A stretch of 64,000 bases of DNA, taken from positions 1 through 64,000 of the forward strand of contig JAIBJM010000007.1 of assembly GCA_020029535.1 (NCBI GenBank). The letters are read 5' to 3'. The notes beneath the pieces were generated by a model. That model searched no databases. It saw nothing but the letters and a program-made list of their open reading frames with translations, and was not told where the DNA came from. This document shows, piece after piece, positions 1,847 to 12,956 of this stretch (positions are counted from its first letter, which is position 1; the number at the start of each line of letters is the position of its first letter). The DNA comes from Gammaproteobacteria bacterium. Lineage in GTDB: Bacteria > Pseudomonadota > Gammaproteobacteria > Steroidobacterales > Steroidobacteraceae. Both the position numbers and the translations under genes were made by a program.

Positions 1847-3121
1847 GTGATTCCGCGCATCCTCATCGTCGACGGCGATCCGCAGTACGCCCGCTGGCTG
1901 CGTCATCACGTCGAAAGCATATGGTCCGACGCCGACCCGGATTGCCGCAACCATGAGCAGCTCGAGGCGCAGCTGGGCACCCTGGCCACCGACTTCGATC
2001 TGCTGCTGTTGGGCGCGCAGTTCGGCACGCTGCCCGATGCCGACTGCGAAGGATTCGACTGGCTGCGCAAACTGCGCAAGCGCGCCGGTCTGCCACCGGT
2101 GGTGATCATCGCCACCGGTGGCAGCGAACTGACGGCCATCAAGGCGCTGCGGCTGGGCGCGGCCGACTATCTGCCACGCGATCTGCTGACGGCACCGCTG
2201 CTGGAGGCACGGCTGCGTAATGCATTGCTGCGCCATCAGAGCCGCAGCCGTCGACGGCAACGCCGCAAGCATGCGCGCCGCGAGACACGCGGTGCCAGTC
2301 CCGAACAGCTGCGCAGCCTGATCCCGGGTTATGCGCTGATCCGTCCGATCGGCGAATCATCGCGCGCCGCGGTCTGGCTGGCGCGCAGCGAGGCGCGCGG
2401 CAACACGGTGGCGCTGAAGATCAGCAAGCCCGCCACTACCGAGCATGACCAGCAGCTGTTCGCACGCGAATACGCCGCGCTCGGTGCGCTGCGCCACCCA
2501 TCGGTGGTCGACATCTACGACTACGGCATTCATGAGCATCGTGAATACCTGGCGATGGAGTACTTCCCTTGTGGCGACCTGAAGCAGCGGCTGCTGCATC
2601 CGATCACGCCAGCGCAGGCCATCGACCATGTACGGCGCATCGCGCTGGCGCTGCAGGCCGTGCACGGCGCCGGCCTGATGCATCGCGACCTGAAGCCGCC
2701 CAACATCATGTTGCGCGCAGACCGGTCCATCGTGCTGATCGACTTCGGTCTGGCGCGGTACGTGAACTCCACCACCAGCAACACCGCAGTGGGCGTGCTG
2801 CATGGTTCGCCCTACTACATGAGCCCGGAGCAGGTGCGCGGTCTGGTGCTGGACCAGCGCAGCGATCTGTACAGCCTGGGCGTGATCTTTTACGAGATGC
2901 TCAGCGGCCGGAAGCCCTATGTGGGCACCACGGCCATCGAACTGATGGAGCAGCACGTGGCCGGCAGGCGCACGGCGCTGCCGCCCGAACTGTCGCAGTA
3001 CGAAACTCTGCTGACGCCGCTGATGGCCGCTGAACGGGATGAACGCTTCCCTGACGCCAGCGTGCTGCTGGAAGCCATCGACACGCTGTTGCCGAGTACG
3101 GAGCTGGCCCATGCAGTCTGA
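1847..3121 (+). CDS. pseudo-receiver / serine-threonine protein kinase fusion
   Basis: 424 aa. Residues ~1-125 form a response-regulator receiver fold with the acidic pair at D9 and D11, but the phosphoacceptor position (LLLLG, G56) is Gly and the usual Lys of the DYLxKP turn is Arg, so it is probably not phosphorylated. Residues ~155-410 are a Hanks-type kinase with the Lys in VALKISK, the catalytic loop HRDLKPPN, the metal motif DFGLAR and an SPE in place of APE; these look active. No transmembrane segment, so cytosolic. Its 3' end overlaps the CheA-like gene by 11 bases, indicating translational coupling and a shared pathway. GTG start at 1847. Confidence 0.88.
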   Translation: MIPRILIVDGDPQYARWLRHHVESIWSDADPDCRNHEQLEAQLGTLATDFDLLLLGAQFGTLPDADCEGFDWLRKLRKRAGLPPVVIIATGGSELTAIKALRLGAADYLPRDLLTAPLLEARLRNALLRHQSRSRRRQRRKHARRETRGASPEQLRSLIPGYALIRPIGESSRAAVWLARSEARGNTVALKISKPATTEHDQQLFAREYAALGALRHPSVVDIYDYGIHEHREYLAMEYFPCGDLKQRLLHPITPAQAIDHVRRIALALQAVHGAGLMHRDLKPPNIMLRADRSIVLIDFGLARYVNSTTSNTAVGVLHGSPYYMSPEQVRGLVLDQRSDLYSLGVIFYEMLSGRKPYVGTTAIELMEQHVAGRRTALPPELSQYETLLTPLMAAERDERFPDASVLLEAIDTLLPSTELAHAV

Positions 3122-4130
3122 AACGGTGCACGACGCATTGCATGGCGAGCTGGTGCACACCCGCGCCGAACGCGACCTGTGCCGTGCGTTGCTGCTGATG
3201 GATCATGGCAGCAGCCAGCACTTCAAGCGTGAGGCGCGCACTGCCATCGAACGCATACCGGCGCTGCTGCGCGAACCGGCGCGGGAATCGGCCGCCTTCA
3301 AGTTCAAGCTGCAGCGCCTCAGCGGCGAGATGCAGCGCCTGCATGAACTGGCGCTGGAACTGCAGCTGCCGCCACTGGCCGAGCAGATCGAGACTGCCGA
3401 CACAGCGCTGCGGCGCCTGTGCGCACAACTGGAACCCACCGGGGACGATTTTCTGCCGGTGCTGCCGCTGTACGACGGACTGCTGAACACGCTGCGCACC
3501 GTATGCCCGCCCGAGCTCGAACTGGACCCGTCTGATGCCGATGATGCCAAGGCCAGTGCGTCCAGCCTCAGCCTGCGCTCTGTGCCCGGCAAGCTGGAAC
3601 TGGCGCTGCAGCAGCTGGCTGCGCAACTGGTCACTCAGCATCAGAAGGAACTGCGCTTGCTGGTGCGCGGCTTTGCCGACATTCCGGGCGAATGGCACAG
3701 CACACTGTTCGACGTGGCCAGCCAGCTGCTGCGCAACGCGGTCGAATATGGCATCGAAACACCCGAAGTGCGCAGCGCGGCGGGCAAGCCGGTCAGCGGC
3801 ACCGTCGAAGTCGAATTCACGGTGCGCGATCAGCTCATCGAGCTCAGCTTCCGCGACGATGGCCAGGGTCTGGATGCCGAGCGCATTCTCGACGCGGGCA
3901 TTTCACTGGGTCTGCTGTCGGCCGAATCCGACCGCGATGTGCGTCGTGCGGCCGGCCTTATCTTCCGCGCCGGACTCAGCACCGCAGTCGACCCGCAGGG
4001 CCGCGGCCACGGCATGCAGATCGTGCGCGACCGTATCCGCAAGCTCGGCGGGCAGATACAGATCTCAACCAAGAAGGGCCGCTACACCGTGGTCCGCGCC
4101 GATCTGCCACTGAATATTTCAGCGGCTTGA
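3111..4130 (+). CDS. CheA-like histidine kinase ATPase without a visible phosphotransfer domain
   Basis: 339 aa from ATG 3111; the ORF-track start at 3039 lies inside the kinase gene and is rejected. The C-terminal ~150 residues are a GHKL ATPase: N-box LLRNAVEYGIE, G1 box DDGQGL, G2 region GRGHGMQIVRDRI, ending as CheA ATPases do. The N-terminal part is helical and Leu-rich with no obvious HPt His motif and no P5/CheW domain. It may phosphorylate another protein, or act as a switch ATPase of the partner-kinase type. The overlap with the pseudo-receiver/kinase gene suggests they work together. ATP-binding fold is seen; substrate is unknown. Confidence 0.75.
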   Translation: MQSETVHDALHGELVHTRAERDLCRALLLMDHGSSQHFKREARTAIERIPALLREPARESAAFKFKLQRLSGEMQRLHELALELQLPPLAEQIETADTALRRLCAQLEPTGDDFLPVLPLYDGLLNTLRTVCPPELELDPSDADDAKASASSLSLRSVPGKLELALQQLAAQLVTQHQKELRLLVRGFADIPGEWHSTLFDVASQLLRNAVEYGIETPEVRSAAGKPVSGTVEVEFTVRDQLIELSFRDDGQGLDAERILDAGISLGLLSAESDRDVRRAAGLIFRAGLSTAVDPQGRGHGMQIVRDRIRKLGGQIQISTKKGRYTVVRADLPLNISAA

Positions 4131-4179: not shown

Positions 4180-5310
4180 ATGCATCTGGTTGATACGACT
4201 CTGTTCTTTTCTCCGACCAGCGGCGGTGTCCGGCGCTATCTGACCGCCAAGCACGACTGGCTGCATGCGCACACCGCGCATCGCCATTCGCTGCTGGTGC
4301 CGGGCGCGACCGATGAATTGAATCCCGGTGGCATCAGCACCGTGGCCGGCACCCGCGTGCCCGGCACCTTCAACTACCGCCTGCCGTTGTCGCCGCATAA
4401 CTGGACCCGCATGCTGGCCGCGCTGCAGCCCGACCTGATCGAAGTCGGCGACGTCTTCCATCCGGCCTGGTGCGCCGCGCGCGTGGCGCGCGAACGCGAC
4501 GTGCCGCTGGTGGCGTTCTTTCATTCCAATCTGCCGCAGATCATCGGCCGGCGCATGGGCTCGACGCTGGAAAGAGCTGTGGGCCGCTATGTCAGCTGGA
4601 TCTACGAGCGCTGCGATCTGCTGCTGGCACCGAGCCGGCTGATGTGCCAGTACCTGCGCGATCTGGGCGTGCGCCGCACCGCGCTGCAGCCGCTGGGCGT
4701 CGATGCCGAAATATTTTCACCAGCGCGACGCGTGCTGAATCTGCGTCGCGAACTGGGCCTGCCGGAAAAAACCCGTCTGCTGGCCTATGCCGGCCGCTTT
4801 TCCGGCGAGAAGAACATCCATGTGCTGCAGGGCGCGCTGGCGCGCCTCGGCCGTCCCTACCATCTGCTGCTGATCGGTGGCGGACGCTGTTCGCGTCCGG
4901 CCGCCAATGTCACCATGCTGCCCTATCGCCGCGACAGCATCGAGCTGGCGCAATGGCTGGCCTCGAGCGATGCGCTGGTGCATGCCGGCAGCAATGAAAC
5001 CTTCGGTCTGGTGGTGCTCGAGGCCATGGCCTGCGGCCGCCCGGTAGTGGGCACGCGCGCCGGCGCGGTGGCTGAACTGGTCGATGAGACGGTGGGGACG
5101 CTGGCCGCACCGAAGGACGAACGCAGCATGGCCGAAGCCATCGCCGCGCTGTACGACCGCAATCTGGAAGTGCTGGGCCATGCGGCCCGCCAGCGCGTGC
5201 TGGCGCGCCACACCTGGGCGCAGGCGTTGCAGCAGCAGTTGAATACCTACGCCAGCATCAGCGCGCGCGTGCGCAGCGGCATCGACGAAGTTCAGCGCGT
5301 CAGCGCGTAG
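4180..5310 (+). CDS. glycosyltransferase, family 4/GT-B type
   Basis: 376 aa retaining GT-B glycosyltransferase. The N-terminal Rossmann half has the acceptor-side GGVRRYL motif near residue 16; the C-terminal half has the nucleotide-sugar motif HAGSNETFGLVVLEAMACG with the EX7E pair typical of GT4. Such enzymes transfer mannose or glucose to lipids or glycans at the cytosolic membrane face; MgtA/PimB-like mannosyltransferases are the closest type by eye. It sits 50 bases after the CheA-like gene and converges with the WD40 gene, overlapping it by 19 bases at the 3' ends. The acceptor cannot be told from sequence. Confidence 0.85.
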   Translation: MHLVDTTLFFSPTSGGVRRYLTAKHDWLHAHTAHRHSLLVPGATDELNPGGISTVAGTRVPGTFNYRLPLSPHNWTRMLAALQPDLIEVGDVFHPAWCAARVARERDVPLVAFFHSNLPQIIGRRMGSTLERAVGRYVSWIYERCDLLLAPSRLMCQYLRDLGVRRTALQPLGVDAEIFSPARRVLNLRRELGLPEKTRLLAYAGRFSGEKNIHVLQGALARLGRPYHLLLIGGGRCSRPAANVTMLPYRRDSIELAQWLASSDALVHAGSNETFGLVVLEAMACGRPVVGTRAGAVAELVDETVGTLAAPKDERSMAEAIAALYDRNLEVLGHAARQRVLARHTWAQALQQQLNTYASISARVRSGIDEVQRVSA

Positions 5311-11786: not shown

Positions 11787-12866
11787 TCAGGTGGGCATGG
11801 CAAAGGCCACGCGGCTACGTTTGTGATTCAGTCGAGTCGCGTCATACGGCGCATGATTTCTGAGCACCGCATAACAGATGCGCGCCAGCTTGTTGGCCAG
11901 TGCACAGGTGGCCTTGTTGTGGCAACTGCGCTGCTGCACGGTCAGCGCCCAGGTTCGCAATTGATCCAGTGGTCTACCCATGCGCTTGGCCACGGTGGCG
12001 GCGCGCAAGACGGCACGGGCACCATGCGTGAGCAACATGCGCAGGTAGCGATCTCCGCGTTTGGAGATGCGTCCCAAATGTCGAGTGCTGCCCGATGAAT
12101 GTTCCTTGGGTGTCAGGCCAAACCACGCGGCAAAGTGTCTGGCATCTTTGAAATGCGAGACTTCGCCGCTGGTGGCTGCCACCATCGCCGTGGCGGTGAG
12201 CAAGCCGATACCAGGAACGGAGAGTAACGTCTCGCACGCCGCTGACTGCTTGGCCAGCCTGGACAGCTCACGTTCCAGCTCCGTGATGCGCGCCTCCAGT
12301 AGACGAACTTCCGCCACCAGCAAGCTCATCGGTGGGCGCAATAGAGTCGGCAGGTCCGACTGCGGATCAGCCAAGAGTCGACTGATCTGCTCCAGTCCCA
12401 GCCGCGAACCGACGGCAATCGAAATGCCAAACTCCCGACAGAAGCCGCGCAGAGCATTGATGCGGGACGTGCGCGTGCCCATCCACAGCGAACGGGTTCG
12501 ATGCAGCGCTTGCAAAGCTTGTTGCTCTACCGACTTGATCTTGACCGGCATGATGTCGGCACAGCGGGCTGCTTCCAGCATCGCTTCGGCGTCTGCTGCA
12601 TCGGTCTTGTTGCGCTTCACGTAGGCGCGGATGTAACGCGCTGGCAGCAGCCGGACTCCGATACCCAGACCCACAAGACGACGCGCCCAGTAATGGGCCG
12701 AGCCGCAAGCTTCCATGATGACTACACCGACAGCTCGGTTGACGAAAAATCGCTCAAACTGCGTTCGAGTCAAGCGATGTCGCTCCACCACCCGCCAGTG
12801 AGCATCGGCCACGGCGACCTGGAAAACACTCTTTGCGAGATCGACCGCCACGGTATTAGCATGCAT
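11787..12866 (-). CDS. IS110/IS1111-family transposase
   Basis: 359 aa from ATG 12866 (MHANTVAVDLAK); the ORF-track start at 12938 adds an unsupported leader. The N-terminal RuvC-like DEDD domain shows VAVDLAK, IMEACGS and TDAADAEAM; the C-terminal Tnp20 domain contains LLSVPGIGLLTA and the conserved serine region HSSGSTRHLGRISKRG. IS110 recombinases act with an element-encoded guide RNA to recombine donor and target DNA. The reading frame is intact with normal length, so the element may still be active. Confidence 0.95.
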   Translation of the reverse strand: MHANTVAVDLAKSVFQVAVADAHWRVVERHRLTRTQFERFFVNRAVGVVIMEACGSAHYWARRLVGLGIGVRLLPARYIRAYVKRNKTDAADAEAMLEAARCADIMPVKIKSVEQQALQALHRTRSLWMGTRTSRINALRGFCREFGISIAVGSRLGLEQISRLLADPQSDLPTLLRPPMSLLVAEVRLLEARITELERELSRLAKQSAACETLLSVPGIGLLTATAMVAATSGEVSHFKDARHFAAWFGLTPKEHSSGSTRHLGRISKRGDRYLRMLLTHGARAVLRAATVAKRMGRPLDQLRTWALTVQQRSCHNKATCALANKLARICYAVLRNHAPYDATRLNHKRSRVAFAMPT

Positions 12867-12956
12867 GACAGGACTCCTTCTGGTTGACGCTGACACCCAC
12901 ACCACATGAGTACAGCAGGTGACATGATGCACCTTCAAAATCAGGGGGAGTCCATC

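Follow-up and report, generated by a model that had tools for sequence, protein, structure and literature searches.

Two overlapping genes in the window (the whole stretch of 64,000 nucleotides analyzed here) encode a receiver-like domain fused to a Ser/Thr kinase (gene A) and an HPt-like domain joined to a CheA-P4-type ATPase (gene B), and neither of the two domains retains the residue that would carry phosphate in a His–Asp relay. Comparisons of sequences and predicted structures establish the anatomy of the two proteins, their loss of phosphotransfer residues, their common ancestry with HPt-bearing kinases, conserved pairing of the genes, and selection on the dead domains; we infer A–B binding, gating of the kinase, and the targets of the pair. 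On balance we lean toward a pseudo-two-component pair, in which docking would be retained and the nucleotide cycle of the GHKL ATPase would gate the kinase without phosphate transfer. The features of the two genes are as follows.

1847..3121, + strand: gene A, pseudo-receiver and Ser/Thr kinase (424 aa, GTG start; Pfam)
1847..2236, + strand: pseudo-receiver domain, residues 1–130 (alignment and secondary structure of the model)
2192..2293, + strand: long helix, residues 116–149, at the receiver–kinase joint (predicted structure)
2330..3082, + strand: Hanks Ser/Thr kinase domain, residues 162–412 (Pfam, invariant columns, Foldseek)
3111..4130, + strand: gene B, pseudo-HPt and CheA-P4-type ATPase (339 aa; HATPase_c)
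3111..3121, + strand: overlap of 11 bp between the 3' end of gene A and the 5' end of gene B (sequence)
3198..3509, + strand: pseudo-HPt domain, residues 30–133 (hhalign, alignment, helices of the model)
3591..4121, + strand: GHKL ATPase domain, residues 161–337 (PDB sequence and fold matches, alignment)

Gene A: A Pseudo-Receiver Fused to a Ser/Thr Kinase

The N-terminus of gene A matches Response_reg (8.8e-07, slightly under the curated Pfam cut-off) and is also matched by PDB receivers. In the predicted structure (pLDDT 90.9), the (beta-alpha)5 elements follow their normal order. When aligned with Asp-bearing relatives and with canonical receivers encoded in the same genome, gene A has Gly56 (codon 2012–2014) at the phosphosite and Arg111 (codon 2177–2179) at the conserved Lys position; Ala89 occupies the conserved Thr position, and one residue of the acid pair is Gly10, with Asp9 retained. 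Gene A thus departs from canonical response regulators at the phospho-Asp at the end of strand 3, the Lys, the Thr, and the acid pair, and has the receiver fold without key residues that defines a pseudo-receiver. An offset phosphosite was considered, since an acidic residue is common among relatives two positions beyond the Asp site; it was rejected because the window has Gln there and because a gap-free alignment with Asp-bearing sister kinases places this residue outside the active site.

The kinase domain (Pkinase, 1.1e-43) resembles those of PknA/PknB, Aurora, and CaMKII in Foldseek comparisons. Its catalytic set is present (Lys191, Glu208, His279-Arg-Asp281, Asn286, and Asp299-Phe-Gly, the DFG motif at 299–301) and is invariant or nearly so in 43 aligned sequences and across 60 relatives; judged by these residues, it is a Hanks Ser/Thr kinase with an intact catalytic apparatus. 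The initial annotation of this DNA had described a receiver with Gly at the phosphosite and Arg at the conserved Lys, fused to an intact Hanks kinase, and both parts of that description agree with the alignments and the Pfam match.

Gene B: A Pseudo-HPt Domain Joined to a CheA-P4-Type ATPase

Gene B most likely starts at the ATG at 3111, which gives the 11-bp overlap with gene A; the orthologous genes in locus L117 overlap by 4 bp. The C-terminal half matches HATPase_c (9.2e-13), and the predicted structure (pLDDT 87.9) is closest to CheA P4, with Foldseek TM-scores of up to 0.88 by target length. The ATPase boxes comprise N-box Asn209, G1 DDGQG (249–253), and G2 GRGHG (297–301). Tyr213 (window 3747–3749) lies in the N-box where the CheA “DHGIE”/“HGIE” motif has His, and His is found at the equivalent site in 33 of the 35 gene B-type partners covered there; the ATPase of the window may be weakened by this substitution. 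Pfam detected no CheW-like (P5) domain in gene B, and the protein stops after P4.

The N-terminal ~130 residues, by profile comparison and modeled fold, are a His-less HPt-like domain homologous to the HPt of sensor kinases. A profile of orthologs over gene B residues 20–135 matches the HPt profile of membrane paralogues with an hhalign probability of 99.3 (E 3e-20, 114 columns), and the model has HPt-like helices at residues 32–54, 60–83, 87–104, and 111–131, with pLDDT mostly above 90. The His of the paralogue motif “ELHSVKGEA” aligns with Gln75 (codon 3333–3335) in the gene B sequence “EMQRLHELA,” so that the HxxKG motif is gone. Pfam Hpt has no direct match in gene B, although the membrane paralogues do match it. 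Gene B therefore combines HPt homology and a helical bundle with the absence of a phosphorylatable His; of the CheA parts, it has the P4 ATPase and lacks a CheW-like P5 and a working P1.

The earlier description of gene B as a CheA-like GHKL ATPase that overlaps gene A and has no CheW part is upheld by these matches. It erred in denying the protein an HPt part: an HPt-derived domain is present, with Gln75 in place of the His. A usable phospho-Asp or HPt His, named by the initial annotation as the observation that would overturn its reading, was sought by alignment, and neither was found in genes A and B. The mixed two-component and Ser/Thr layout, unlike a standard His–Asp pathway, is likewise supported, with both phosphotransfer domains present and catalytically dead.

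Membrane Paralogue and Its Operon

The genome of the window also encodes a gene B paralogue of 722 aa on contig 120, to which gene B aligns from residue 21 to near its end with 34% identity. This paralogue matches Pfam Hpt (1.5e-06) and HATPase_c and, by reading of the sequence, has a PAS-like region and an N-terminus with hydrophobic stretches. It belongs to four genes (L128, 3237–8037) encoding a TonB_C-ended protein, the membrane HPt-GHKL sensor kinase, CheY, and the phosphatase CheX. No chemotaxis genes are nearby in the part seen, and no description of this operon architecture was found in the papers searched.

All 15 pair-bearing genomes checked for the membrane sensor and CheX are at least 91% complete. 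Five of them (G034, G052, G042, G251, and G156; 91–100% complete) keep the pair and have neither a full-length membrane HPt sensor nor a CheX match. Trans-phosphorylation of the membrane paralogue was rejected as the general mechanism on this ground, and a general role of the pair in feeding the CheY of the membrane sensor is unlikely for the same reason. It is possible that gene B feeds this CheY where both are encoded, as in the genome of the window.

Distribution and Catalytic Residues Among Relatives

Searches of 98 related genomes, and then of 217 genomes of the same family, retrieved about 100 loci, in which catalytic sites were read from alignments. A receiver-kinase directly beside a pseudo-HPt ATPase was found at 36 loci, counting the window, which are spread over five genera of one family; conservation of the gene pair across these loci indicates that the pairing is not due to chance. 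The receiver Asp is absent from all 36 paired loci and the HPt His from 35 of the 36 partners, and the sole His-bearing partner (L130) is missing the KG that should follow. At the His site, the paired partners have Asp (13), Arg (6), Thr (4), Ser (3), Val (3), Gln (2), Ala (2), Gly (1), or Glu (1). All 24 unpaired membrane paralogues keep HxxKG. N and G1 boxes are intact in all 35 paired ATPases covered, and reading frames are open, without stops, in nearly all A/B loci. In a published survey, Asp is missing from about 2.0% of receivers and His from 0.9% of Hpt domains (PMC12632262); given these frequencies, both losses in one gene pair are far from the rule.

No unpaired pseudo-HPt-type gene B was recognized except in L142, where the contig breaks off short of the expected gene A position. 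Receiver-kinases lacking an adjacent GHKL gene account for 21 of the 60 window-clade loci (see below), some of them near contig ends, indicating that some lineages either do without the partner or encode it at another site. When the gene B sequence alone was used to scan a genome collection, only one weak match was obtained, and plasmid searches returned only generic kinases and CheA.

In genus g21, some paired ATPases (L147 4189–6782, L134, and L132) have also lost G2-box glycines, and the kinases of L147 and L078 have HGD/HCD instead of HRD. These changes suggest further drift within that genus.

Ancestry and Order of Losses

A tree built from the kinase domain, with receiver columns excluded, separates the window clade from a sister clade (SH-aLRT 99). 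Asp is present in 20 of the 28 sister-clade members, versus none of the 59 window-clade members (of 60) in which the site is covered. Only window-clade kinases were found next to an HPt-GHKL gene (39/60), an arrangement never seen in the sister clade. Because the Asp loss falls on one branch, its association with partnering comes close to a single event. In the tree of the GHKL ATPases, the paired proteins cluster together, beside the membrane sensors.

Three loci (L153, L155, and L156) combine an Asp-less window-clade kinase with an adjacent membrane HPt-GHKL sensor in which the HPt is intact. Their gene order is TonB_C-ended (TonB/TPR) protein, receiver-kinase, membrane HPt-GHKL sensor, CheY, and CheX. 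The N-terminal region of the upstream TonB_C protein looks receiver-like, and that of a relative (L157) matches Response_reg weakly. This longer operon is likely to be the parental arrangement of the A/B pair. Loss of His and Asp in one step is excluded by these three loci, which show that Asp was lost first or separately. As read from the alignments and trees, the HPt His was probably lost in the lineage whose kinase partner shrank, a sequence of changes represented by few independent events.

The same genome holds a second receiver-kinase paralogue (G000:C74:11816-13033; L122 4281–5537), a sister-clade member with Ala for Asp that lies close to purF and has no GHKL neighbor. In another family, an Asp-bearing sister receiver-kinase (L084 4355–5919) adjoins a free-standing HPt protein of 104 aa (Pfam Hpt 6.8e-09), possibly a live HPt–receiver pair for comparison.

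Selection on the Dead Domains

Values of dN/dS were calculated by the Nei–Gojobori method for nine informative pairs of close loci, a tenth pair being too similar. The ranges were 0.12–0.28 for the receiver, 0.07–0.39 for the pseudo-HPt, 0.07–0.19 for the GHKL ATPase, and 0.05–0.13 for the Ser/Thr kinase. The low values in both dead domains indicate that these are maintained, rather than decaying.

Neighboring Glycosyltransferase and Surroundings

A glycosyltransferase gene follows gene B in the window.

4180..5310, + strand: GT4 glycosyltransferase close to the GlcNAc-phosphatidylglycerol synthase GpgS (NCBIfam NF053787)

This gene scores 445 bits against NF053787, below the NCBIfam GpgS cut-off of 480. 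A search with PF10096 (DUF2334), which we take as a stand-in for COG3233, the partner deacetylase GpgD, gave no match in the genome of the window. In all 64 genomes that have both genes on one contig, the GT4 gene lies downstream of gene A on the same strand and within 10 kb. It comes directly after gene A, at a distance of 141–196 bp and with no gene B between, in 31 genomes; in the remainder, it comes after gene B or past genes on the opposite strand. The linkage to gene A is thus strong and only partly operon-like. On the strength of conserved gene order, the GT4 enzyme is one possible target or output of the pair. In Pseudomonas aeruginosa, GpgS is a characterized enzyme and belongs to gpgSDF (PMC12713373).

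By eye, GspA/GspB-like genes are located upstream of the receiver-kinase in L112 (526–2865), L116 (219–959), and L163 (422–1135), which may point to an ancient connection with type II secretion or the cell envelope. In the window itself, a transposase-like N-terminus occurs at the very start (within 1–1800) and an IS110-type transposase at 11787–12938, both also recognized by eye. Upstream of gene A, the coding signal is weaker where relatives have the TonB_C gene.

Proposed Mechanism and Alternatives

For the pseudo-two-component pair, we propose the following route. The ancestral operon would have combined the receiver-Ser/Thr kinase with a membrane PAS-HPt-GHKL sensor kinase, CheY, CheX, and a TonB/TPR protein. 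The paired lineage would have lost the receiver Asp and the HPt His while retaining the folds, the GHKL nucleotide site, and the Ser/Thr kinase, and the ancestral receiver–HPt docking surface would survive as a fixed protein–protein contact. Binding or turnover of nucleotide by the GHKL domain would then alter the pose of the pseudo-HPt; this would shift the pseudo-receiver and the long helix leading to the kinase, and the shift would turn Ser/Thr phosphorylation up or down with no His–Asp transfer. More tentatively, the same may hold across the family: the pair could be the phosphotransfer-free descendant of a phosphorelay, in which the docking contact would now place a eukaryote-like kinase under the direct control of the nucleotide state of a CheA-type ATPase.

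Intact N, G1, and G2 boxes in gene B are also what would be expected if it were a split CheA-like kinase acting in trans on a separate HPt, such as the one in the contig 120 membrane paralogue feeding CheY and CheX, with the link to gene A incidental. There is precedent in the CheA3/CheA4 pair of Rhodobacter sphaeroides, where P4 acts on the HPt of another protein, and a paralogue that has an HPt, with CheY and CheX genes next to it, is indeed present in the genome of the window. We nevertheless regard this as unlikely: five near-complete or complete genomes have the pair and neither the membrane HPt sensor nor CheX, the HPt-derived domain of gene B is itself under purifying selection, and the conserved neighbor is a Ser/Thr kinase, not CheY. 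Other chemistry between the two proteins is similarly improbable. The kinase of gene A, its catalytic residues intact, might phosphorylate the pseudo-HPt/GHKL partner, or the GHKL domain might be a Ser/Thr kinase acting on gene A in the manner of SpoIIAB/RsbW; Ser or Thr does stand at the old His site in 7 of the 36 partners, but Asp, Arg, Val, Gln, Ala, Gly, or Glu is mostly found there elsewhere, so that no acceptor is conserved, and the GHKL domain resembles CheA P4 rather than the anti-sigma kinase family.

The two domains might also work independently within one operon, the pseudo-receiver being only a module for dimerization or localization and gene B regulating another protein, such as the glycosyltransferase. 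The 31 genomes in which gene A stands directly upstream of the glycosyltransferase without gene B fit this reading, to which we give little credence given that B lies directly beside A in five genera and that L142 alone has an apparently unpaired pseudo-HPt-type B. Least credible is the idea that the pair is a functionless remnant, left over from the longer operon and in the course of being lost. In its favor, none of the key phosphotransfer residues is left, no TonB/TPR, CheY, or CheX gene stands beside the pair in the window, and debris of mobile elements is present upstream; decay is, however, already disfavored by dN/dS values well below 1 in every domain, by frames that are open in nearly all loci, and by kinase catalytic residues that are near-invariant across 60 relatives.

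Relation to Known Systems

Every part of the pair has known relatives, and searches of the open-access literature yielded no description of a pseudo-receiver Ser/Thr kinase combined with a pseudo-HPt ATPase. Bacterial pseudo-receivers likewise have the receiver fold without phosphotransfer residues, and contacts are presumed to be their mode of action (Bourret et al., 2025; PMC12632262); unlike those, gene A has a Ser/Thr kinase as its output and an adjacent dedicated partner with an equally dead HPt. The membrane PAS-HPt-GHKL sensors of the same family share a homologous HPt-GHKL core with gene B, but keep the HPt His and KG, have hydrophobic N-terminal parts, and are accompanied by a live CheY and the CheX phosphatase. 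CheA (P1–P5) has the same P4-type ATPase fold and N/G1/G2 boxes, whereas gene B has no phosphorylatable HPt and no CheW-like P5 and is not located with chemotaxis genes. Pseudo-histidine kinases, like gene B, are histidine-kinase relatives that lack a phosphorylatable His; gene B differs from them in being of the HPt/CheA type rather than the HisKA type and in having a Ser/Thr kinase as its neighbor. Gene A shares its catalytic domain and residues with PknB-type Hanks kinases, except that an N-terminal pseudo-receiver replaces the membrane PASTA sensor.

How pseudo-receivers are switched on and off was called a mystery in a 2025 review (PMC12632262). The A/B system offers a pseudo-receiver whose catalytic output is intact and whose partner, fixed genetically, has a matching dead HPt; live relatives and a visible, likely route of loss are also available, and these features make this question directly testable. 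Furthermore, the pair illustrates a possible way in which a His–Asp system turns into a Ser/Thr one.
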